Below are positions 48,125 through 57,179 of a stretch of DNA of 64,000 nt, one piece after another. Both the position numbers and the translations under genes were made by a program. Origin of the DNA: Chitinophagaceae bacterium (GTDB lineage: Bacteria; Bacteroidota; Bacteroidia; Chitinophagales; Chitinophagaceae). Location of the stretch: positions 1-64,000 of the forward strand of contig JAIETM010000001.1 in assembly GCA_019745155.1 (NCBI GenBank). Reading direction: 5' to 3'. Every line of letters begins with the position of its first letter. The stretch's first letter is position 1. The notes under the pieces are model-generated. The model saw only the letters and a list, made by a program, of their open reading frames with translations. It was not told the origin of the DNA and did no database searches.

Positions 48125-48263
48125 GTGCCCCCAACTGTACAATTCTCGAACCACTTTATACCGGATTTGACAAGACTTGCGAATCTTATGATTGCATAAG
48201 ACTTTGACAAGTCTTTTTTATTGCCTGATTTTAAGCGATTTATAAACCATAAAATTGAGAACT

Positions 48264-49364
48264 ATGAAAATTGATAAAAGCTACATGGATTTTATCCTGT
48301 CTATTAAACAGCAAATTGTGCAGAGCCGGTACGTGGCGGCCAGGCTGGCTAACCGGGAGCAACTGATGCTGTACTTTAAAACCGGGTTGATGATTTCTGA
48401 AAAGATTAAGGCCCAGAAATGGGGGGCCAAAGTACTTGACCAGATTTCAGCAGACCTACAAAAGGAACTGCCCGGACTAAAAGGTTTTTCGCCGGGCAAT
48501 TTGAAGAAAATAAGGCTGTTCGCCGAGGCTTATGCACCTCATCTGGCAATTGGTTCGACAGCGTCGAACCAATTTGGGCAGGCTGGTGTTGAAGAACCGT
48601 TTTCAATTAGTTCGACACTGTCGAACCTAATTGAAAATAAGACATTTTATGAAGCATTTACAGGCATCAGCTTCTCCCACCATTTTACAATTATAACCAA
48701 AATAAAGGGCTGGGAATCCCGCATTTTCTATGTCCAGTCTGCGGCGGTCAATTTTTGGTCGCTGACGGTGCTGGAACACCATATTGAGAATGACCTGTAC
48801 GGCAAGGAAGGTAAACTGCCCAATAATTTTGATGGCACATTGGCAGAAAATTTAAAGCCATCGGCACTAAAAGTTTTTAAAGATGAATACCTGCTGGATT
48901 TTATTGCCGGTGATGAGCTGGATGATGAACGGCACATAGAGCAACAAGTTGTTTTAAACATCCGAAATTTTATACTGCAAATGGGCAAAGGCTTTTGCTT
49001 TATTGGCAACCAATACAGGCTTGAAGTAGATGGCGATGAATTTTTTATTGACCTGCTCTTTTTTAACCGGCACCTGCAATGCCTGGTGGCTTTTGAACTA
49101 AAGAAAGGAAAATTTAAACCTGCCGATGCCGGGCAGCTTAATTTTTACCTGAATGTGCTGGATGAAAAAGTAAAACAGCAGCAGGAAAACAGCAGCATTG
49201 GTATTGTGCTTTGCAAGGAGAAAAATAATACAGTTGTTGAGTTTGCTATTAAAAGTTTTGACAAAGCTATGGGCGTGGCCACATACAAAACCTCAAAGCA
49301 TACTCCTGAGAATATAAAGAACTTACTACCAAACCCGAATAGTATTGCCAATTTAATCAAATAA
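48264..49364 (+). CDS. YhcG-type PDDEXK nuclease domain protein (DUF1016)
   Basis: A 366-residue protein. The N-terminal DUF1016 domain (about 1-100) has L-M-L-Y-F-K-T-G-L-M-I-S-E-K and G-F-S-P-G-N-L-K-K-I-R-L-F. The C-terminal PDDEXK domain (about 190-340) has D-L-Y, Y-L-L-D-F-I, F-C-F-I-G-N-Q-Y-R-L-E-V-D-G-D-E-F-F-I-D-L-L-F-F and V-A-F-E-L-K-K-G-K-F-K-P (the ExK core). This family is linked to recombination of mobile elements and restriction-like loci. The linker between the domains is encoded by two large palindromes. The ATG at 48264 is preferred over an ATG three codons upstream. Confidence 0.85.
   Translation: MKIDKSYMDFILSIKQQIVQSRYVAARLANREQLMLYFKTGLMISEKIKAQKWGAKVLDQISADLQKELPGLKGFSPGNLKKIRLFAEAYAPHLAIGSTASNQFGQAGVEEPFSISSTLSNLIENKTFYEAFTGISFSHHFTIITKIKGWESRIFYVQSAAVNFWSLTVLEHHIENDLYGKEGKLPNNFDGTLAENLKPSALKVFKDEYLLDFIAGDELDDERHIEQQVVLNIRNFILQMGKGFCFIGNQYRLEVDGDEFFIDLLFFNRHLQCLVAFELKKGKFKPADAGQLNFYLNVLDEKVKQQQENSSIGIVLCKEKNNTVVEFAIKSFDKAMGVATYKTSKHTPENIKNLLPNPNSIANLIK
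48548..48574. repeat. Palindrome 1 inside the YhcG-type gene
   Basis: A 12-bp perfect inverted repeat AATTGGTTCGAC (48548-48559) and GTCGAACCAATT (48563-48574) with a three-base loop, inside the coding sequence. Confidence 0.85.
48601..48636. repeat. Palindrome 2 inside the YhcG-type gene
   Basis: TTTCAATTAGTTCGACA (48601-48617) pairs over 17 bp with the segment 48619-48636 with one bulged C. It shares the GTTCGACA core with palindrome 1. Confidence 0.85.
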
Positions 49365-49368
49365 CTCT

Positions 49369-49677
49369 TTACTCTTCTTTGCCTGAATTAGATGCCCGTA
49401 TAACTTCAGGAAGAGTAGTGGCTAATGTCCGTAGAATTAAAGGAGCGGATAGGCCAATATGGAAGTACACAATCTTATTAAGCTTTTGTGCATCATCAAA
49501 GTAAACATATCCAAGTATTACACTTAACGCAATATTGAAGATTATAGCCAAATAGTACAAGATTGATTTAAAATCAGGACGTCTGTCTTTGGGTGCATTC
49601 ATGCCATCAATCAAATAAAGAATTTGAACAGCGGCTCCCCCAAGTCCGGAAATAAAAACTGGTTCTGGTATAGACAT
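49369..49677 (-). CDS. Small three-helix membrane protein, last gene of the Argonaute operon
   Basis: A 102-residue protein with three predicted TM helices (about 6-24, 38-60, 71-90) and a charged loop P-K-D-R-R-P-D-F-K. No known domain. It starts five bases after the winged-helix-like gene and is the last gene of the minus-strand operon. Small membrane proteins at the end of defence operons often act as membrane-damaging effectors; here that is inference. It converges with the YhcG gene, four bases between stops. Confidence 0.6.
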   Translation of the reverse strand: MSIPEPVFISGLGGAAVQILYLIDGMNAPKDRRPDFKSILYYLAIIFNIALSVILGYVYFDDAQKLNKIVYFHIGLSAPLILRTLATTLPEVIRASNSGKEE

Positions 49678-49682
49678 AGTAA

Positions 49683-49955
49683 TTAATCTATTCGGTTCTT
49701 AAATGTTCCTATAATCCTGTCCATTAAGGGCGCCTTATTTCTAAATAAACGCCTTGAAGTAAATAATGGCTCTCCGGCCTTTTTTCTATAAGAAGACCTT
49801 ACAAATTCCCCGGAATTAGTTATTACATTGACAACAATATTAGGGTCAATTTTCGTTTGCACCGATATTTCATCAAGTGTTTTCCAGTAATCACCTTCTG
49901 CTTTGTCAAAAAAAGTTATTATCGCTTCTTTTGCCGTATTTATTTTATCAGACAT
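49683..49955 (-). CDS. Small winged-helix-like hypothetical protein
   Basis: A 90-residue protein. The central part T-L-D-E-I-S-V-Q-T-K-I-D-P-N-I-V-V-N-V-I-T-N followed by F-V-R-S-S...G-E-P-L-F-T-S looks like a winged helix-turn-helix with a beta-wing. The C-terminus is basic (R-R-L-F-R-N-K). It could bind nucleic acid. It lies between the zincin-like gene (58 bases away) and the membrane protein gene (5 bases), so it belongs to the Argonaute operon. No family assignment. Confidence 0.55.
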   Translation of the reverse strand: MSDKINTAKEAIITFFDKAEGDYWKTLDEISVQTKIDPNIVVNVITNSGEFVRSSYRKKAGEPLFTSRRLFRNKAPLMDRIIGTFKNRID

Positions 49956-50013: not shown

Positions 50014-51147
50014 TTACAAGGTTGTTTTAAATTGAGCAACGGCTGTCTTTTCCCACTCATAGAAATTTTCAGGGTCTGCCCAAAATTGTTTCCAGGAATT
50101 ATTCAACAGTTCACACACTTTACCTTTTGATTCAGGCGAAATGATGTCGCAGCCAATTTGTTTTGTACCAACAAGACAAAATTCTGCAGCCAATTTAAGT
50201 AATTTATCAGGTACAGCTACAGGAAATCCTGTCGGTTTTTTATGGTCAACTATAACCTTGAATTCTTCCCATTTAGCTTCTATCTCTTTTTTAACATCCT
50301 TGAACCCAACTAACTCCAAACCATACAAAATTGCTTTCATTCTGGCTTCGCCTGGTGGATGTGATGATTTTTGAAATGTCGGAATTTTGTAAACCTCCCA
50401 TGACATTTTTGTACACATGTGTATGTTTGACCAGATATACGCCGGACCCAAAGTGTATGTTGCAAATAAATCACAGAACAGCTCAACTGACCACTTTTCA
50501 ACCCATGATTCTTTCCAAACATGAATTGAATCAAATTCTGCCTGATTCGTTTTATTAAGCTCCCGCCTTTTTATTTCATCATCAAAGTACTTTCTCACTT
50601 CAACATTAAATAAACCCAGGTTATTTTGCATTGCATCCAGCTTTGGATTTTCTAAATACAAAAGCGGATGGCCTAACTCATGATAAATGTCAGGAATGTG
50701 TAACACAAATTCCGATTCTAAAAGTGGTATGCAAATAAGATTGTAGTCAGGATAAATGTGATAATATTTCTGTGATAAACACGATGCTACAGGTGTCTGC
50801 AGCGGATAATTTATTTCCTGGCAAATTTGATATACAAGTTTATTTACAAACTCATCGTCAGCGGCTTTTCTGCTCATAGCGGCGATGACTACATTTTCAA
50901 TATCAGACATTCGGCCAGAAAGTTGCTTGAACTTAGAAAATTTCTGCCTTATACTTTTGGGGTCATTGTAGTCATCATCATTGTACAAATAATCAAGTTC
51001 AGATATAATTTGTTCAATTTCCCTGTTTGCGATTGTTGCTAATGATGGAAAATACACTCCAAGCTCTCTTGCACCGGGTATTTTTGACATCAAGACCCGA
51101 CCTTTGGCAATAGCCTCTCTGATTGCGCCGTTAATATAATTCTTCAT
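50014..51147 (-). CDS. HExxH zinc-metallopeptidase-like protein in the Argonaute operon
   Basis: A 377-residue soluble protein. A zincin motif H156-E157-L-G-H160 is preceded by P-D-I-Y. About 60 residues on, W-S-V-E222-L-F-C-D226-L-F-A-T-Y supplies a candidate third zinc ligand (E222), an order seen in gluzincin-type peptidases. S-H-P-P-G-E-A-R (261-268) is a further conserved-looking motif. The N-terminal 150 residues are helical. Substrate unknown. The gene follows the 121-residue helical protein by three bases. Metallopeptidases paired with XRE regulators (ImmA-ImmR type) cleave the regulator; this possibility is inference. Confidence 0.65.
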   Translation of the reverse strand: MKNYINGAIREAIAKGRVLMSKIPGARELGVYFPSLATIANREIEQIISELDYLYNDDDYNDPKSIRQKFSKFKQLSGRMSDIENVVIAAMSRKAADDEFVNKLVYQICQEINYPLQTPVASCLSQKYYHIYPDYNLICIPLLESEFVLHIPDIYHELGHPLLYLENPKLDAMQNNLGLFNVEVRKYFDDEIKRRELNKTNQAEFDSIHVWKESWVEKWSVELFCDLFATYTLGPAYIWSNIHMCTKMSWEVYKIPTFQKSSHPPGEARMKAILYGLELVGFKDVKKEIEAKWEEFKVIVDHKKPTGFPVAVPDKLLKLAAEFCLVGTKQIGCDIISPESKGKVCELLNNSWKQFWADPENFYEWEKTAVAQFKTTL

Positions 51148-51150
51148 AAG

Positions 51151-51516
51151 TTAATCGCCTATTATCTTTGCCAAAACTTCACTATTCTCAACATCCAAAG
51201 CTTCTGTTATCATTTCAATTTTAGGTATAACTGTTTCTGTGTTTTTATTCTTGATATCTTCAATTAGTGTACTAAAGAAAACATCTGGTCTTTTGTTAAA
51301 GTTCCGCAGCTCCCGTTCAATTATACTTGCCAGCATTTGAAACTGAGGTTCAGCATTATTTACATCAGTGAGTTTGGATACAAAATCAATGAGCTGTTCC
51401 TGCCGTGCTTCTGTAATTTCAGGGTGTATTTTGGCCTTCACAATAAAATCATTGAGTATATCCAGATACTTACTCGTAATGCGAAAAGAATTTGTATTTA
51501 TACCAATATTGCTCAT
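51151..51516 (-). CDS. Small helical protein between Argonaute and the metallopeptidase-like gene
   Basis: A 121-residue, mostly alpha-helical acidic protein without a known domain (opening M-S-N-I-G-I-N-T-N-S-F-R-I-T-S-K-Y-L). The ATG at 51516 is used because it lies 16 bases after the Argonaute stop; the frame open to 51582 would overlap the Argonaute gene and lacks support. Three bases separate it from the metallopeptidase-like gene. It may be an adaptor or immunity partner, which is inference. Confidence 0.6.
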   Translation of the reverse strand: MSNIGINTNSFRITSKYLDILNDFIVKAKIHPEITEARQEQLIDFVSKLTDVNNAEPQFQMLASIIERELRNFNKRPDVFFSTLIEDIKNKNTETVIPKIEMITEALDVENSEVLAKIIGD

Positions 51517-51532
51517 AGTTGTATGTTTAATG

Positions 51533-53980
51533 TTATGAATGAATAGTTTTAAGAACATCAAGTGCTTCCAAATCAAAATCACTGCCGAGTATATTAATTC
51601 GTCTGTCAGTTATTTTAATTGTCAATGGGTACCTTGAGCAATCATCTGGTTTTGTGTAGGCCAGGCATGACAAATAATAGATGTCTTCCAGAATGTGCTC
51701 TATATCCATGTTTCCAAAAGGGAATTTAATATATAACGGATTAGAGCTTCCATTATGTTTAAACTCCCGTCCTGTTGTACAAAGAAAAGCCTCCCGGTTA
51801 TTTATCTTAACCCAGGAGCCAATTTCAGGATTTAATACCGAACCGTTGTCATTGTCGCTATGCAATACATCATATTCTTTGAGTACTTCAAAAAGCCTTA
51901 ATTGAAGTATTGAGTGTTTAGGTATCTCAACAATATTAATAGAAACATCGTCAGGCAAAATGCCCTTTTCTTTCAATAATTGAATAGCCTTAAATATTCC
52001 AGTACGTTCAACTGCAAATAATTTTCCATCACGGTGTATAACTATCTTTTTTAAAGGGTTAGCCGTATTATTTTTCTGTACAGTAATATACCTGACAAGC
52101 ATTTTAACAATTTGGCTTTCTGATAAACGTTCTTTATTCTTAGATTTATCGAATTTGGTAAGTATGTTTTTTGAATATTTATCAATGAAGGTGAACCCGG
52201 CTATATGTTTTTTTACATCAATACCAATTGTTAAGTCTGCGTGTAAAGGTGAATTTAAAACATAGGGCCATCTTTCATTATTCAGAAGTACTTGATTGAT
52301 TGCAACACCTTTCACATAGCCATCGTATTTACCTTTTAATTCTCTTCTTATTATATAACCTTTCTGTCCATTAGTTTCGGTGTATAAAAAACATTCTTCC
52401 AAAGTATCGCTGTGCATGATACTTGCAGTAATATTGTATTCTTCGAGGCACTCAGATACTACTAATGCGGCTAAATCATCATGCTGGCGTTGTTCCTTTT
52501 CTACGCCTGATGGAAGCATAATGAGTGCATAACCGCCGCTATTCTTTTTTATATTCTCCTCCATCTTTTGTAATATTTCAAACCCAATTGCCACCGCATT
52601 CCTCTTATTCCTGTTGTCATAAGTAATCACAACGGGATTCCATCCATCTTCTGTAGGATGAGTTTTATTTACCTGCGACCTTAAATGACCAAGAAAATGT
52701 TTCTCATTACCAAACATATTATATACGGTCTGTGGGACTAAATAATACTGTGTTTCAAATATTGCATTCGTATAAAAACCAGCAGTATCATCAAATAACA
52801 ATGCCTTTCGCTTTTTTCCAAGGTCTTCTAGAAATGTATGAATAGAGTTTTCTGTGTTTCGTACTGACAAAGACACATTATTACCAAACAGCGAGTCAGG
52901 AGCCAGAAATTTCTTCTTTTCAACACAAATTGGTTGAGTACTTACTTGCAATTTGATTTTACCATACATCAATCTTCGGAAGTAGTTATTATGAATGATG
53001 CGAATTAACCTTCTTCTTGGAAAAGGATTTATAATTGACTTATGATGCACTTTTTGCACTACAGGGTCTTCGGTATCATATACTTTATAACAGAGTGCTG
53101 CCACTGCGGCTCTCTCTTGCCCATCATTTGTTCTATATAACAACACGGCTGCATCATCCGGAAGATTGGCTACTTCAGGCGGCATAGACTGCCCAAACTT
53201 TTCCTGAATATCCTGTAGCAATGTTACCACCTTGCCATCAGCTTCCCGGGTGAACTTATAATTAGATACATTTAAGTCGCTAAATTCAACTGGCCGTATT
53301 TCATATCTGACTCCACCGTATTGATACACATAATGTGATTTGCTTACCTTTTGCGATTTAAATTCATTTCTTGTTAAACGGGCATTTAGCGGATATAGCG
53401 ATATGTATTTCTTCGTTATGTCCAGTTCAAAACCAAATCCGTTGCCTGGCAATTCGGTTACCCTTGAATAAAAACCAGTATAAATGCCTACAGGATTTCT
53501 TTGTTCTTTAGCAATTACATTAAAGAACCCGTCTCCGGAGCCTGGCTGCCAAAGGCCTTCATTCTTTGTAAGTTCTGATTGGCTATCAAATTGTAAGAAC
53601 CTCAGAATAACTTTTTTAGTTTCTTCATCATAATTGACAAAATCCAATCTTATAGGATTGCCGCTCTTTTTAAAATATACAACATCGCCGTGTTTTACGG
53701 TGTATTCATCAGGTACTTTATTAGTAATATCATCATCTGCCCTTATAACGAGATGAGGCTTTTTATCCTTTGTAACAACAGTAACCGGATGCCTGAGTTT
53801 ATAAGCCAGGCTTTTGATTATGTATTGAATATTAATATCAAAATCGTCATTGGCATCATCATCAGCCTTTGACTCTTTTAATCCAATTATTTCATACAAA
53901 AAATAATCAGCAGACAATAGATTACAATTTTCAATCTTGAAAATGTTCGTCTCGTACTGCGTACTTATTGGCTGTTTCAT
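51533..53980 (-). CDS. Long prokaryotic Argonaute (PIWI domain) with apparently complete catalytic tetrad
   Basis: An 815-residue protein, full length for long pAgos. The PIWI domain (about 580-800) shows the RNase H-like core: T-I-G-I-D588-V-K-K, candidate glutamate finger E621 (R-L-S-E-S-Q), I-V-I-H-R-D651-G-K, and D792 in L-T-I-K-I-T-D-R-R. Spacing between the first three agrees with known catalytic pAgos. S-N-P-L-Y-I-K-F is also typical. The MID region (about 450-575) is divergent; the usual glutamine of G-I-P-S-Q is not seen. The expected role is guide-directed cleavage of invading nucleic acid. The ATG at 53980 overlaps the end of the nuclease gene by 50 bases; an ATG at 54061 would overlap more. 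Confidence 0.85.
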   Translation of the reverse strand: MKQPISTQYETNIFKIENCNLLSADYFLYEIIGLKESKADDDANDDFDINIQYIIKSLAYKLRHPVTVVTKDKKPHLVIRADDDITNKVPDEYTVKHGDVVYFKKSGNPIRLDFVNYDEETKKVILRFLQFDSQSELTKNEGLWQPGSGDGFFNVIAKEQRNPVGIYTGFYSRVTELPGNGFGFELDITKKYISLYPLNARLTRNEFKSQKVSKSHYVYQYGGVRYEIRPVEFSDLNVSNYKFTREADGKVVTLLQDIQEKFGQSMPPEVANLPDDAAVLLYRTNDGQERAAVAALCYKVYDTEDPVVQKVHHKSIINPFPRRRLIRIIHNNYFRRLMYGKIKLQVSTQPICVEKKKFLAPDSLFGNNVSLSVRNTENSIHTFLEDLGKKRKALLFDDTAGFYTNAIFETQYYLVPQTVYNMFGNEKHFLGHLRSQVNKTHPTEDGWNPVVITYDNRNKRNAVAIGFEILQKMEENIKKNSGGYALIMLPSGVEKEQRQHDDLAALVVSECLEEYNITASIMHSDTLEECFLYTETNGQKGYIIRRELKGKYDGYVKGVAINQVLLNNERWPYVLNSPLHADLTIGIDVKKHIAGFTFIDKYSKNILTKFDKSKNKERLSESQIVKMLVRYITVQKNNTANPLKKIVIHRDGKLFAVERTGIFKAIQLLKEKGILPDDVSINIVEIPKHSILQLRLFEVLKEYDVLHSDNDNGSVLNPEIGSWVKINNREAFLCTTGREFKHNGSSNPLYIKFPFGNMDIEHILEDIYYLSCLAYTKPDDCSRYPLTIKITDRRINILGSDFDLEALDVLKTIHS

Positions 53981-54923
53981 AACTATTTGTTTTACATATT
54001 TTCTGAAATGGACACCTTTGACAATGCTCAATGTATTCTGTGGTGGAAAAATTATCCGCACTCAATTGACTGTACTTTTTATTAGCCCCGGCTATGTGCA
54101 TCCTGATTATGGCAGAAGACATATTCTCTCCGAAGGCTTCAATTTTATCATCTGTTACATCATAATCCCTTTTTATCCGGTCTTTGTGAAGCAATTGATA
54201 TTCGGTCAGTTTATAATCCTGAATTTTCCATTTAGAAATATTTGCAGGAAAATCTGCATGAGGTTTTATTGTACCTACTTTATAAAGTGCCACTGCATAG
54301 GCAATTAACTGTTCATCGTATGAAGCCGTACCGTAGGTATGTACTTTCCAGTCAAAAATATGCGGCGGACCATCATCGAAAAAAGCAATAAAGTCAGGTA
54401 TTGCTTTTACACTAAACCGGTCAAAATTGTAAATCAATGGCCTTTGACTAATTACATATTTGGCAGTTTTCAGGTAATCAATAAAATTTTTGTCGTCAAG
54501 AATATTTGTAAGAGCAGTAATGATATCATCTTTAGCCTGATTGATTTCTCCGTCAGAAATACCCTCTCCAAGCTCACATTCAAAAAAGGCATTAAATTCA
54601 GGATTATTTGTTAGTACAGCATCCGGCTTACGATAGTTTTTAGAAACAGCATACTCTAATTGTACATCAAACATTGCAAGTGCCTGTTCAATAAAATAAT
54701 CTTTCTTTACCGGGTATTTATTATTGATTGCCAGTACCAGGTATTTGCTTAAAATGTTATCTACTATTGTACCCCTCCAGGCTTGAACAGTCTGCAACTT
54801 TGAAAGTAATGTTACTTCCCGCCGAAACAAATCATTCTTTACCCGGCTATCTGCTACAATATTCTTGTAGAACCACAACCGTTCACACTGAACAAACTGC
54901 TTATATCCTGTAACTGAAATCAT
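53931..54923 (-). CDS. Cas4-like Fe-S cluster PD-(D/E)XK nuclease (RecB family)
   Basis: A 330-residue protein. The nuclease core is I-P-D177-F...F-D191-W-K193 with the QxxxY-type motif Q205-L-I-A-Y. Four cysteines are placed as in Cas4/AddB-type iron-sulfur nucleases: C13 in V-Q-C-E-R-L-W-F-Y, and C301-x2-C304-x5-C310 near the C-terminus. Cas4-like enzymes are exonucleases; near Argonaute they may process guides or targets. The gene overlaps the XRE regulator by ATGA and Argonaute by 50 bases. No CRISPR array or cas1/cas2 is present in the window. Confidence 0.85.
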   Translation of the reverse strand: MISVTGYKQFVQCERLWFYKNIVADSRVKNDLFRREVTLLSKLQTVQAWRGTIVDNILSKYLVLAINNKYPVKKDYFIEQALAMFDVQLEYAVSKNYRKPDAVLTNNPEFNAFFECELGEGISDGEINQAKDDIITALTNILDDKNFIDYLKTAKYVISQRPLIYNFDRFSVKAIPDFIAFFDDGPPHIFDWKVHTYGTASYDEQLIAYAVALYKVGTIKPHADFPANISKWKIQDYKLTEYQLLHKDRIKRDYDVTDDKIEAFGENMSSAIIRMHIAGANKKYSQLSADNFSTTEYIEHCQRCPFQKICKTNSYETANKYAVRDEHFQD

Positions 54924-55264
54924 TTTTTCCGATTTCTGATAAACTTTAAATAATTAAGTAATTCCAATTCTTCATCATCTGAAATATCGCCAACCCTGTA
55001 GGCAATAGATGTTTTACCCGACTCACTTTTCACTTTTTCCTTCCGTTCAGGAACAGGATAGCCTACTTTCTCCATAAGCAAATCATAACTTACACCATAT
55101 ATTTCAGAAAGTTTGTGAAGCGTTAACGGAGAAGGTTGTTTTACTTTTCCTGATTCAAGCTGGCTTAAATAAGCATTTGAAACATCAGCCTGTTTCTCTA
55201 CTTCCCGAAGGGTCATATTTTTTGCTTCTCTCAAAGCCCTGAAGTAGTCACCATAATTTTGCAT
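54920..55264 (-). CDS. XRE family transcriptional regulator of the Argonaute operon
   Basis: A 114-residue protein with an HTH_3 domain (about residues 6-64): F-R-A-L-R-E-A-K-N-M-T-L-R-E-V-E-K-Q-A-D-V-S-N-A-Y-L-S-Q-L-E-S-G. A short charged tail ends I-R-N-R-K-K. It is the first gene of the operon, overlapping the nuclease gene by ATGA. Two 20-bp operators in its promoter suggest autoregulation. Confidence 0.88.
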   Translation of the reverse strand: MQNYGDYFRALREAKNMTLREVEKQADVSNAYLSQLESGKVKQPSPLTLHKLSEIYGVSYDLLMEKVGYPVPERKEKVKSESGKTSIAYRVGDISDDEELELLNYLKFIRNRKK

Positions 55265-55282: not shown

Positions 55283-55334
55283 TTGCTAAGTATTGCAAGC
55301 AAATATACAAAGTGTTGCTTGATATTGCGAGCAA
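55283..55334 (-). promoter_or_regulatory. Promoter and twin operators of the Argonaute operon
   Basis: Two sites of the form TTGCT-N10-AGCAA at 55283-55302 and 55315-55334, start-to-start 32 bp (about three helical turns). The minus-strand -7 box TATATTTG (complement of 55300-55307) overlaps the first site and lies between the two. A dimeric XRE repressor bound here would block the promoter. Confidence 0.7.
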
Positions 55335-55412: not shown

Positions 55413-57179
55413 TTATAATTTATGAGTGTCAGTTGTGCTTGAAATAAAATTTCTGACAAATTTTTCTGCGCTAATAAAATTAATTCGCTTTTGCTCAAGC
55501 AGCTTTTTTAACTCAGCTATAAGCCTGAATTGCAACTTAAAATTTATACTTCCTTTTGTTTTGGAATACTCCTGTTTTACTGTTGGCATAATCCTGTTAT
55601 CAATTTCTGCCAGATAATAAGACGCCGCCGCAGTAATTCTTGATTCGAGCAGTTGATATTTATCCCCTTGTTTTAGTTTGCAGATACCGCTTACCTCGTC
55701 TGTAAATTTAAGTGAAGTAGTAATACAGTTTTTAACTCTTACAACTACTTCCGTAATTGCAGCATAGTTGTTTAGAAAATTATCATTCTGAGAAAAAAAA
55801 GCAGATAACTCTTCCCATCTAAAATGCCCTCTGATTTTTCGTTCTGCAAACAATGCCTGCTCATTCAAAAGAATTTCGTTTAGTTTATCTCCGTGTAGTG
55901 AATGTGATAAAGTACCGGCAGCAAAAGCTGAATTATTAATAATTTGAAGGTTAACCTGAGAACTTAAAGACAAACCCTGTAAAGATTTTAATCGGCTTAA
56001 AGCAACATAAGCCTGTCCCGGAACAAAAACATTTTCTAAATCCAAAACTGCATTTTCAAAAGTTAGTCCCTGGCTTTTATGAATTGTAATTGCCCAAGCT
56101 AATTTAACAGGGAACTGTTTGAAAGTACCTATTACTTCAGGGCTTACAGTATTTGTTGATTCATTAAACACATATTTTATTTTGGACCAAACTTCCTTTT
56201 CAATTTGTATAAATTTCCCATCGTCAAGAAGTACAGATAATCTCTCAGGTTCTATGATTTTTACCAACCCTGTTTTTCCATTATAGTATTTTTTATCTTT
56301 TTCCTTGTCATTACGCAATAACATTATTCTTGCGTCAATTTTTAATGTTAAACAATTCTCAGTGGGGAAAGACACTTCATCAAAGTCACCATCAACCTCT
56401 GCCCACAATGAGTGCTCTTGGGTGGTAAGCGTTTTAAGCTCTTTTTCATTTATTGAATCAACTTTAGAATTGTGAGTCGTAAGGATAACAGCACTTTTAT
56501 GATTTACAGCATCAGGTTTGTAATAAGTGTTGATTAACTCAACTTCTCTTTGAGAACAATTACCTGTTCGCATGAGATTCAGCAATTCAATGAAGCTATC
56601 ATCTGATTGCCGATAGACTTGCGTAAGTTCGAGAAATAGTGGTGGTGCTTTTTTTACAGATAGTGCGTTTAAGAAATTAATTCCATTGTAATAAGATTTT
56701 ATCTGCATCCACTCTTCATCTGCAATGATTGGTGAAAGTTGGCATAGGTCTCCCACAAATAGAACCTGGACCCCGCCAAATGGCACATCTTCTTTCGTCC
56801 TCGTTTTCCTAAGCACATAGTCAATAGCATCTAATGTATCAGCTCTTAACATGGATACTTCATCAATAATTAGCAGTTCAAGTTCCTTAATTAGTCTCTT
56901 TTTATTACTATCTATTGAAGTTCCTGGCTGGCTTTTTCCCGGAAGAAAGGGCCCAAGAGGTAAGCTAAAGAAAGAATGAATGGTGACTCCATTTGCATTG
57001 ACAGCCGCAATGCCAGTAGGTGCAACAATTATATATTTCTTAGCAATGTTTTGCCAAAGTGTATTCAGAAAAGTTGTTTTACCGGTTCCGGCTTTCCCTG
57101 TAAGAAAAACAGATTTATCTGTAGTATTAATAAATTCGGAAGCAAGTTTAAAAGTATCATTAATTTCTATTGTATTCAT
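55413..57179 (-). CDS. PIF1-like superfamily 1 DNA helicase
   Basis: A 588-residue helicase. Walker A G-K-A-G-T-G-K-T (28-35), A-P-T-G-I-A-A (53-59), Walker B I-I-D-E-V-S-M (104-110), G-D-L-C-Q-L-S-P (143-150), I-H-K-S-Q-G-L-T-F (366-374) and Y-V-A-L-S-R (391-396). The last 180 residues are an extra C-terminal region without a recognised domain. PIF1 relatives unwind 5'-3', and mobile elements often carry one. It has its own promoter-like sequence and is separated from the XRE gene by 148 bases, so membership of the Argonaute system is not shown. Confidence 0.9.
   Translation of the reverse strand: MNTIEINDTFKLASEFINTTDKSVFLTGKAGTGKTTFLNTLWQNIAKKYIIVAPTGIAAVNANGVTIHSFFSLPLGPFLPGKSQPGTSIDSNKKRLIKELELLIIDEVSMLRADTLDAIDYVLRKTRTKEDVPFGGVQVLFVGDLCQLSPIIADEEWMQIKSYYNGINFLNALSVKKAPPLFLELTQVYRQSDDSFIELLNLMRTGNCSQREVELINTYYKPDAVNHKSAVILTTHNSKVDSINEKELKTLTTQEHSLWAEVDGDFDEVSFPTENCLTLKIDARIMLLRNDKEKDKKYYNGKTGLVKIIEPERLSVLLDDGKFIQIEKEVWSKIKYVFNESTNTVSPEVIGTFKQFPVKLAWAITIHKSQGLTFENAVLDLENVFVPGQAYVALSRLKSLQGLSLSSQVNLQIINNSAFAAGTLSHSLHGDKLNEILLNEQALFAERKIRGHFRWEELSAFFSQNDNFLNNYAAITEVVVRVKNCITTSLKFTDEVSGICKLKQGDKYQLLESRITAAASYYLAEIDNRIMPTVKQEYSKTKGSINFKLQFRLIAELKKLLEQKRINFISAEKFVRNFISSTTDTHKL

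Follow-up and report, generated by a model that had tools for sequence, protein, structure and literature searches.

The zincin-like protein encoded on the minus strand at positions 50014..51147 of the window (the 64,000-nucleotide stretch of Chitinophagaceae DNA analyzed here) occurs with near constancy in Argonaute operons of a known class. Recognized by its motifs and a structural model, it is a 377-amino-acid (377-aa) product of an ORF with an ATG start and carries the motifs of M48-like metallopeptidases. The operon class has already been published, and both the zincin and the small helical protein encoded beside it go unnamed in the passages on these operons in PMC9360449. Our preferred reading, to which we give slightly less than an even chance, is that the zincin is a regulatory protease acting on the helix-turn-helix (HTH) regulator encoded with it.

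The Operon and Its Predicted Metallopeptidase

The sequence-only reading had placed the zincin in an Argonaute operon, and this is confirmed. Five tightly spaced genes follow one another on the minus strand in the order XRE, nuclease, Argonaute, 121-aa protein, and zincin, with spacings of -4, -47, 16, and 3 bp (the second becomes -50 with the ATG at 53980, one codon earlier, as the Argonaute start). The first encodes a 114-aa XRE (Cro/C1-type) regulator made up of an HTH and a short conserved tail (54920..55264), the second a Cas4-like PD-(D/E)XK nuclease with four conserved cysteines (53931..54923; PADLOC Aga_Cas4-like_Nuc, E 2.9e-116), and the third a long Argonaute of the PliAgo/RslAgo (D-R) kind with conserved DEDD residues (51533..53980), whose putative start is the first ATG of an ORF that opens with GTG at 54061. 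The gene next upstream of the zincin (51151..51516) encodes a small, all-helical partner of 121 aa with five predicted helices. This protein is modeled as five helices with a pLDDT of 87.7, and Foldseek returned nothing for it from the PDB at E 0.001. Kinship with Csm2 was considered and dropped: two of 64 members matched, with a best E of 0.016, and the structural match (Z 7.0, rmsd 4.4, 101 residues aligned) stood amid unrelated bundles.

The Argonaute matches the PADLOC pAgo_II model with 1024.8 bits and the PliAgo structures 7r8k, 7r8f, and 7r8h with E-values of 4e-108 to 1e-107; it is not matched by the Pfam Piwi model. Its closest plasmid relative (46.1% identity over 98%) belongs to an operon of Runella slithyformis, whose locus in our set (L009) encodes WP_013921749.1, the RslAgo of PMC9360449. 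Another locus (L099) is from Pedobacter nyackensis, the species of PnyAgo in the same paper. Residues D615, E644, D678, and D819, numbered in the 842-aa ORF, are conserved in 83 or 84 of 84 Argonautes, and we assign them to the putative DEDD catalytic tetrad. A nuclease and an HTH regulator precede the gene, as in the PliAgo group. The window Argonaute is a D-R pAgo of the PliAgo/RslAgo type, for which DNA-guided RNA cleavage is predicted.

In the main text of PMC9360449, the "D-R" Argonautes, which are guided by DNA and cut RNA, fall into two groups, the operons within each group being alike in gene composition; a nuclease is named, as are an HTH regulator for the first group and a sigma70 factor for the second, and the discussion leaves the natural role of these Argonautes open. 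The terms "protease" and "metallo" are absent from that main text, and neither protease nor peptidase occurs in the main text of the surveys PMC6299218 and PMC2743648, the former of which mentions unnamed orthogroups that could conceal the zincin gene. The text of PMC3506569 names a zincin for the Lit protein only. When the open-access literature (no preprints) was searched for an Argonaute paired with a metalloprotease, zincin, metallopeptidase, or M48, no such partner was evident by title or abstract start among the matches listed; to that extent, the searches and these main texts agree with the earlier statement that no pAgo partner of this type had been described.

The two motifs that first drew attention to the gene are present in the 377-aa ORF: HELGH (156-160), within DIYHELGH, supplies H156, E157, and H160, and the later ELFCD (222-226), within WSVELFCD, supplies E222 and D226. 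A third motif, HPPGEAR (263-269), lies 3' of the other two. Conservation of these motifs goes beyond chance, because H156, E157, H160, E222, D226, H263, P264, and R269 are invariant in a 70-row alignment and because HExxH, E-x-x-[CSA]-D, and HPxxxxR are all present in 90 of 92 zincin ORFs (the window included, some records repeated), the remaining two being truncated by contig ends. The scan patterns that brought in most of these ORFs spanned the HExxH and GPAY stretches, so that the selection favored HExxH to some degree; neither of the other two motifs was in the patterns. Between the window zincin and that of L023, dN is 0.036 and dS is saturated at 4.4. The gene is present as a single copy in its own genome, and no relatives were found in phage and viral collections.

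The structural model (mean pLDDT 95.8, pTM 0.93) predicts long helices up to residue 111 and a small sheet at 120-141, with HExxH in a helix at 152-164, ExxxD in a helix at 207-233, and HP just before a helix at 266-279. A Foldseek search of the PDB and of viral models gave nothing at E 0.001. A second aligner listed ZMPSTE24 (4aw6; Z 7.6, rmsd 6.9, 196 aligned), with unrelated helical rows scoring alike, and Ste24p (Z 7.3, rmsd 8.7, 206 aligned), with helical-bundle rows scoring alike; these matches, and that to neprilysin (Z 7.5, rmsd 4.4, 174 aligned), are a hint only. Family M13, which neprilysin brought into consideration, was rejected on its profile values (local P 0.065, global P 0.86).

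Against M48 profiles, the zincin gave a local P of 1e-4 and a global P of 9.7e-8 (probability 91.7); against M78 profiles, it gave a local P of 4.9e-5, over HExxH and the Glu motif, and a global P of 0.22. The three motifs are in register in the global M48 alignment, at low per-column confidence, and HExxH, ExxAD, and HPxxxxR occur in this order in all 27 M48 proteins scored. Comparison proteins were taken from related genomes, with templates cropped around HExxH and the L071 fusion removed from the zincin alignment; the loci given, out of those fetched, were 27 of 30 for M48, all 19 for M13 (of which 18 were retained), and 17 of 18 for M78 (of which 11 were retained, the others having no HExxH in the stretch taken). 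In 40 column shuffles of the M48 comparison, the highest values were 5.96 (global) and 20.7 (local), compared with observed values of 41.4 and 38.4; an earlier set of 20 shuffles included one value of 132.7, presumably from a misread column. As yardsticks, the families compared among themselves gave P 3.7e-5 (M48 and M13), 4.5e-5 (M48 and M78), and 0.016 (M13 and M78).

Searches of Pfam, NCBIfam, and PADLOC yielded no convincing match. Over 70 zincin members, the best Pfam values ranged from 0.0025 to 0.08, each seen in one or two members; the M48 model PF01435 matched none of the 70 at E 0.1, and the ImmA-family (M78) model PF06114 matched neither these nor the window zincin. We discounted a PADLOC BrxB match (E 0.0025) over residues 51-133, which probably reflects helical content. 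Because no curated M48 model matches, we describe the protein as M48-like and stop short of assigning it to M48. It has in common with M48 peptidases the order HExxH, ExxxD, HPxxxxR at similar spacing, and differs from them in the missing Pfam M48 match, in having no membrane segment by hydropathy, in helical N- and C-terminal parts of its own, and in the lack of a significant Foldseek match. The three conserved motifs, the confident model, and the conserved operon lend good support to the proposal that this is an active metallopeptidase in an Argonaute operon; it would be a cytosolic, catalytically competent enzyme with M48-type catalytic motifs, from which we infer proteolytic activity. At L071 (419-2764), a zincin is fused to a second part with its own HEFLH, a later DYDAD, and, by eye, no HPxxxxR, which is perhaps a second, different zincin domain.

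Several genes flank the operon. A 90-aa protein (49683..49955, minus strand) and a 102-aa protein with hydrophobic segments (49369..49677, minus strand) are encoded as an optional, paired add-on 3' of the zincin in eight loci belonging to both regulator groups (the window, L021-L023, L025-L027, and L088); a Vibrio plasmid that is not among the five zincin plasmids encodes a protein related to the 102-aa one (40% over 83%). A convergent DUF1016/YhcG nuclease-like gene (48255-49364) adjoins the operon. On its other side, the gene for a Pif1-like helicase (55413..57179, minus strand) is a frequent neighbor of these operons in Bacteroidota, being near the Argonaute operon in the window and in 20 other loci (L016, L021-L031, L081, L087, L088, L090, L092, L093, L097, and L099; the count omits L014, a repeat, and L042, which is weak). 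Its placement varies, upstream or downstream and on either strand, which suggests more than one inherited order. Sets of multiubiquitin or ubiquitin-like, ThiF (E1-like), and DUF6527 genes lie beside Argonaute or zincin operons in L009 and L012 (by annotation) and in L017 and L044 (by eye).

Occurrence with and without Argonaute

With a 12-row alignment as query, 87 stretches were confirmed in species genomes, and 79 loci were kept from them; with five plasmid loci, seven genome loci, and the window, these make 92 loci, or 86 without record repeats (near-copies remain). By their record titles, the zincin loci span at least ten phyla. Gene sets were counted in the 76 of these 86 loci with at least 4.3 kb of upstream DNA, the XRE being sought by one phmmer pass only and the other genes by iterated profiles. 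By script, the small protein adjoins the zincin in 74 of the 76; Argonaute is present in 71, the nuclease in 72, and all four of these genes in 68 (the Argonaute of L054, split over two ORFs, was counted as present). Of the two loci without a scripted small protein, L060 is a miss caused by an overlapping ORF start and L020 has an unmatched 149-aa ORF in that place.

Co-inheritance with Argonaute is tight. Single-sequence searches of 395 genomes of the phylum, own genome included, found the zincin in eight and Argonaute in seven, and all seven Argonaute-positive genomes have the zincin; the same five plasmids carry both genes. Samples that start from Argonaute are small. A profile search of the 395 genomes added two weak matches, one unrelated by eye and the other a distant zincin of 468 aa (genome G016; L191, 6945-8351) with HELGH, EIYCD, GPAY, and SHPPFKIR. 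The gene for the latter adjoins one for a dCTP deaminase-like protein (PF22769) and one that weakly matches a histidine-kinase-type ATPase, and the stretch has no Argonaute match.

The evolutionary distances of the two proteins also run in parallel. With repeats, near-copies, and odd ORFs removed, 66 loci were available for the zincin-Argonaute comparison, which gave r = 0.952 (at most 0.115 in 500 permutations), and 43 for partial correlations, which gave 0.55 for this pair at full length and 0.30 with equal columns. Both the co-inheritance, small as the samples are, and these correlations favor a role as effector, in which a D-R Argonaute bound to a foreign transcript would activate the zincin, which would cut a partner (such as a pro-form of the nuclease or the small protein) or host proteins and so stop the infection. 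Precedents are described in the texts on Craspase (PMC9729208) and on nucleases activated by a partner protease (PMC12799240). We nevertheless consider this role rather unlikely, because five loci, and further ones from Chloroflexota, keep the zincin and small protein in the absence of Argonaute, and because an Argonaute that keeps its catalytic residues would have less need of a borrowed effector. A protease that matures the Argonaute or nuclease constitutively, with no part in signaling, would also account for the shared operon and the strong co-inheritance; the five Argonaute-less loci make this quite improbable, as does the finding, in the main text of PMC9360449, that RslAgo and three further D-R Argonautes are active nucleases when made in E. 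coli without the zincin.

The five loci in question (L032, L058, L077, L061, and L091/L017) have the regulator, small protein, and zincin without the nuclease-Argonaute pair. L061, with its near-twin L062, retains a 109-aa nuclease remnant, and L091/L017 encode a 136-aa protein in place of nuclease and Argonaute; for L017, the idea that this is a GIY-YIG protein was dropped, the likeness being by eye only and Pfam giving no match. The active-site motifs are intact in these loci except in L077, which is cut by a contig end. On the zincin tree, the five are separate tips amid Argonaute-bearing relatives (the contig-edge row L071, labeled as without Argonaute, is left out of this count). L061 and L058 are near neighbors with the Argonaute-bearing L063 between them, an arrangement explained equally well by two losses or by a loss and a regain. 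An Argonaute profile at E 0.001, which found three of three positive controls, found none in the genomes of L058, L061, L062, L077, and L091, these five being metagenome assemblies by title and possibly incomplete. The L032 genome contains one distant Argonaute by profile; in four of the five loci, the available genome shows no such Argonaute.

Among 370 genomes of the phylum of L058, there are seven zincin matches at E 1e-6, six of them without Argonaute in the available DNA and one (L204) with the full operon. L205 and L206 encode the small protein and zincin with no Argonaute or nuclease, and XRE had no match in their available DNA; one genome has two fragments (L207, L208); and L209 and L210 are distant zincins with no small-protein match. 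L210 keeps all three motifs, the second motif is EFVSD in L205 and EFVGD in L206, and L209 has YPPLDCR instead of HPxxxxR. On the other hand, seven Chloroflexota loci with Argonaute are among those of the earlier scan (L034, L036, L037, L038, L040, L041, and L044). The pairs in L205 and L206 each face what seems by eye to be the same three-gene set, with one receiver-domain-like and one kinase-ATPase-like gene; Pfam gave no match for the L205 set.

Retention of the small protein and zincin where Argonaute is absent, their near-inseparability elsewhere, and the probable autoregulation by XRE described below would suit a toxin-antitoxin system, with the small protein neutralizing a toxic protease, XRE regulating itself, and the pair stabilizing the defense locus. 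We hold this to be very unlikely: the pair usually lies within a large conserved operon, and L041, L054, L059, L063, and L076 are on records titled chromosome, where stabilization is less needed.

The Regulator and a Possible Role for the Protease

Two operator-like sites lie upstream of the XRE start codon on the minus strand: site 1, TTGCTTGCAATACTTAGCAA, at 55283..55302, and site 2, TTGCTCGCAATATCAAGCAA, at 55315..55334, spaced 32 bp from it. Site 1, the XRE-proximal one, is overlapped by a promoter-like box, TATATTTG, which we take to resemble the Bacteroidota -7 element. The exact pattern TTGCT-N10-AGCAA occurs nowhere in the window beyond these two sites, and its one-mismatch form is no commoner than chance over the whole window (seven found, 5.6 expected). 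With at most one mismatch, it is found within 150 bp upstream of XRE in 35 of 51 XRE loci, 16 having none, and XRE-proximal sites are 133 times as dense as those in the remainder of the loci. Nineteen of the 51 have two sites, 17 with a spacing of 32 bp and two with 19 bp. The Argonaute-less loci of the XRE type (L032, L058, L061, and L077) have at least one site each, in L032 and L061 only with a mismatch. A tighter pattern has one exact match in the whole genome, upstream of XRE, and one-mismatch matches at further places; XRE may have further targets there.

Because such sites precede its gene, XRE is probably an autorepressor of its own operon, with the sites as candidate operators. We read it as an HTH with a short tail and no evident sensor domain, and it would therefore need a releaser from outside; as the only recognized protease in the operon, the zincin is the natural candidate. 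Under the regulatory reading that we prefer, the zincin and the 121-aa helical protein would act together as a protease module, and XRE would repress the operon through the two operators just upstream of its gene. Infection would lead to release or activation of the zincin through the helical partner, possibly by Argonaute on finding a foreign transcript. The zincin would then cut or remove the operon's HTH regulator, which is XRE in this group and, in the sister group, the HTH partner of the sigma factor; with that regulator gone, the nuclease-Argonaute operon would be switched on. We are guessing at the trigger, at the HTH protein being the substrate, and at the part of the small protein as an adaptor or an inhibitor.

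Besides the conserved motifs, the confident model, the near-constant small protein, and the operator-like sites, further observations incline us toward this mechanism. The Argonaute-less loci keep the regulator together with the small protein and zincin. Both regulator groups encode an XRE-like HTH protein, since the gene between sigma factor and nuclease in the sigma group is XRE-like (hhalign probability 84, P 7.8e-6, over the HTH part only). Each kind has its own conserved tail, the likeness of the tails being judged by eye, and the 19 "sigma-group HTH" proteins include one clear misfit, the transposon-type gene of L083. Finally, XRE distances at full length link most directly to the zincin, with a partial r of 0.25 against 0.02-0.06 for XRE with the other three proteins (43 loci); full-length zincin distances depend directly on Argonaute, the small protein, and XRE.

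Other observations weigh against it. When all proteins are reduced to 95 random columns, the XRE-zincin link exceeds that of XRE with Argonaute in only 70 of 100 repeats, that with the nuclease in 64, and that with the small protein in 69; with equal columns, the strongest link is between small protein and zincin, and the XRE-zincin preference is weak. To this are added the 16 XRE loci without a site, the chance-level frequency of the one-mismatch pattern in the window as a whole, the lack of an XRE match in L205 and L206, the lack of a PF06114 match, and three loci with upstream sequence present (L011, L044, and L083) that have Argonaute and zincin and no regulator found by one phmmer pass.

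Comparison with Known Systems

With the D-R pAgo operons of the PliAgo and PnyAgo groups, as these are set out in the main text of PMC9360449, the window shares the kind of Argonaute, the PD-(D/E)XK nuclease, and an HTH or sigma70 regulator. The genes named there are the nuclease, the regulator, and the sigma factor; the small protein and the zincin go unnamed. D-R Argonautes are known as RNA cutters that can be programmed. A protease and a helical partner in nearly every D-R operon seen make the natural role of D-R Argonautes testable. Useful handles are a catalytic residue to mutate, candidate operators at the promoter, and the purified relatives RslAgo and PnyAgo.

In the ImmA-ImmR and IrrE-DdrO systems, a zinc protease is encoded together with a short XRE regulator and releases the repression that the latter exerts. 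The sequence-only reading had suggested an ImmA-ImmR logic for the window. The short XRE, the paired operator-like sites, and the sets of regulator, small protein, and zincin without Argonaute speak for this logic; family kinship of the protease with ImmA is not apparent, given the lack of a PF06114 match and the M48 type of the third motif, although locally its first two motifs align with M78 as well as with M48. The window resembles both systems in having a zinc protease encoded with a short XRE that probably controls its own operon. It differs from them in the absence of a match to the M78 model, in the extra small protein, and in the nuclease and Argonaute genes that stand between regulator and protease; cleavage of the regulator is hypothetical here.

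In type III-E CRISPR systems, according to the text of PMC9729208, Csx30, a protein bound to the sigma factor RpoE, is cut by a protease that RNA triggers. The window differs from this Craspase in that an Argonaute replaces the CRISPR effector, the zincin motifs are not those of a caspase-like CHAT protease, and the regulator is an XRE with no sigma factor in the operon; activation by RNA is hypothetical here. A full Argonaute counterpart of Craspase, in which a foreign transcript would act on the zincin via the small protein, the HTH regulator would be cut as a transcriptional alarm, and the module would have been borrowed by Argonaute-less systems, seems to us unlikely. We know of no other protease signal under the control of an Argonaute, and this one would be the first if the protease does answer to it. 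The likeness to Craspase (PMC9729208) lies in an RNA-targeting, guided effector encoded with a protease, and extends in the sister group to a sigma factor: there, the genes for a sigma factor, a protease, and an RNA-targeting Argonaute stand in a single row. Because the Craspase protease is both triggered by RNA and directed at sigma-bound Csx30, and because the sigma group has a like gene row, regulation of the operon by the zincin and triggering of the zincin by Argonaute can both hold together.
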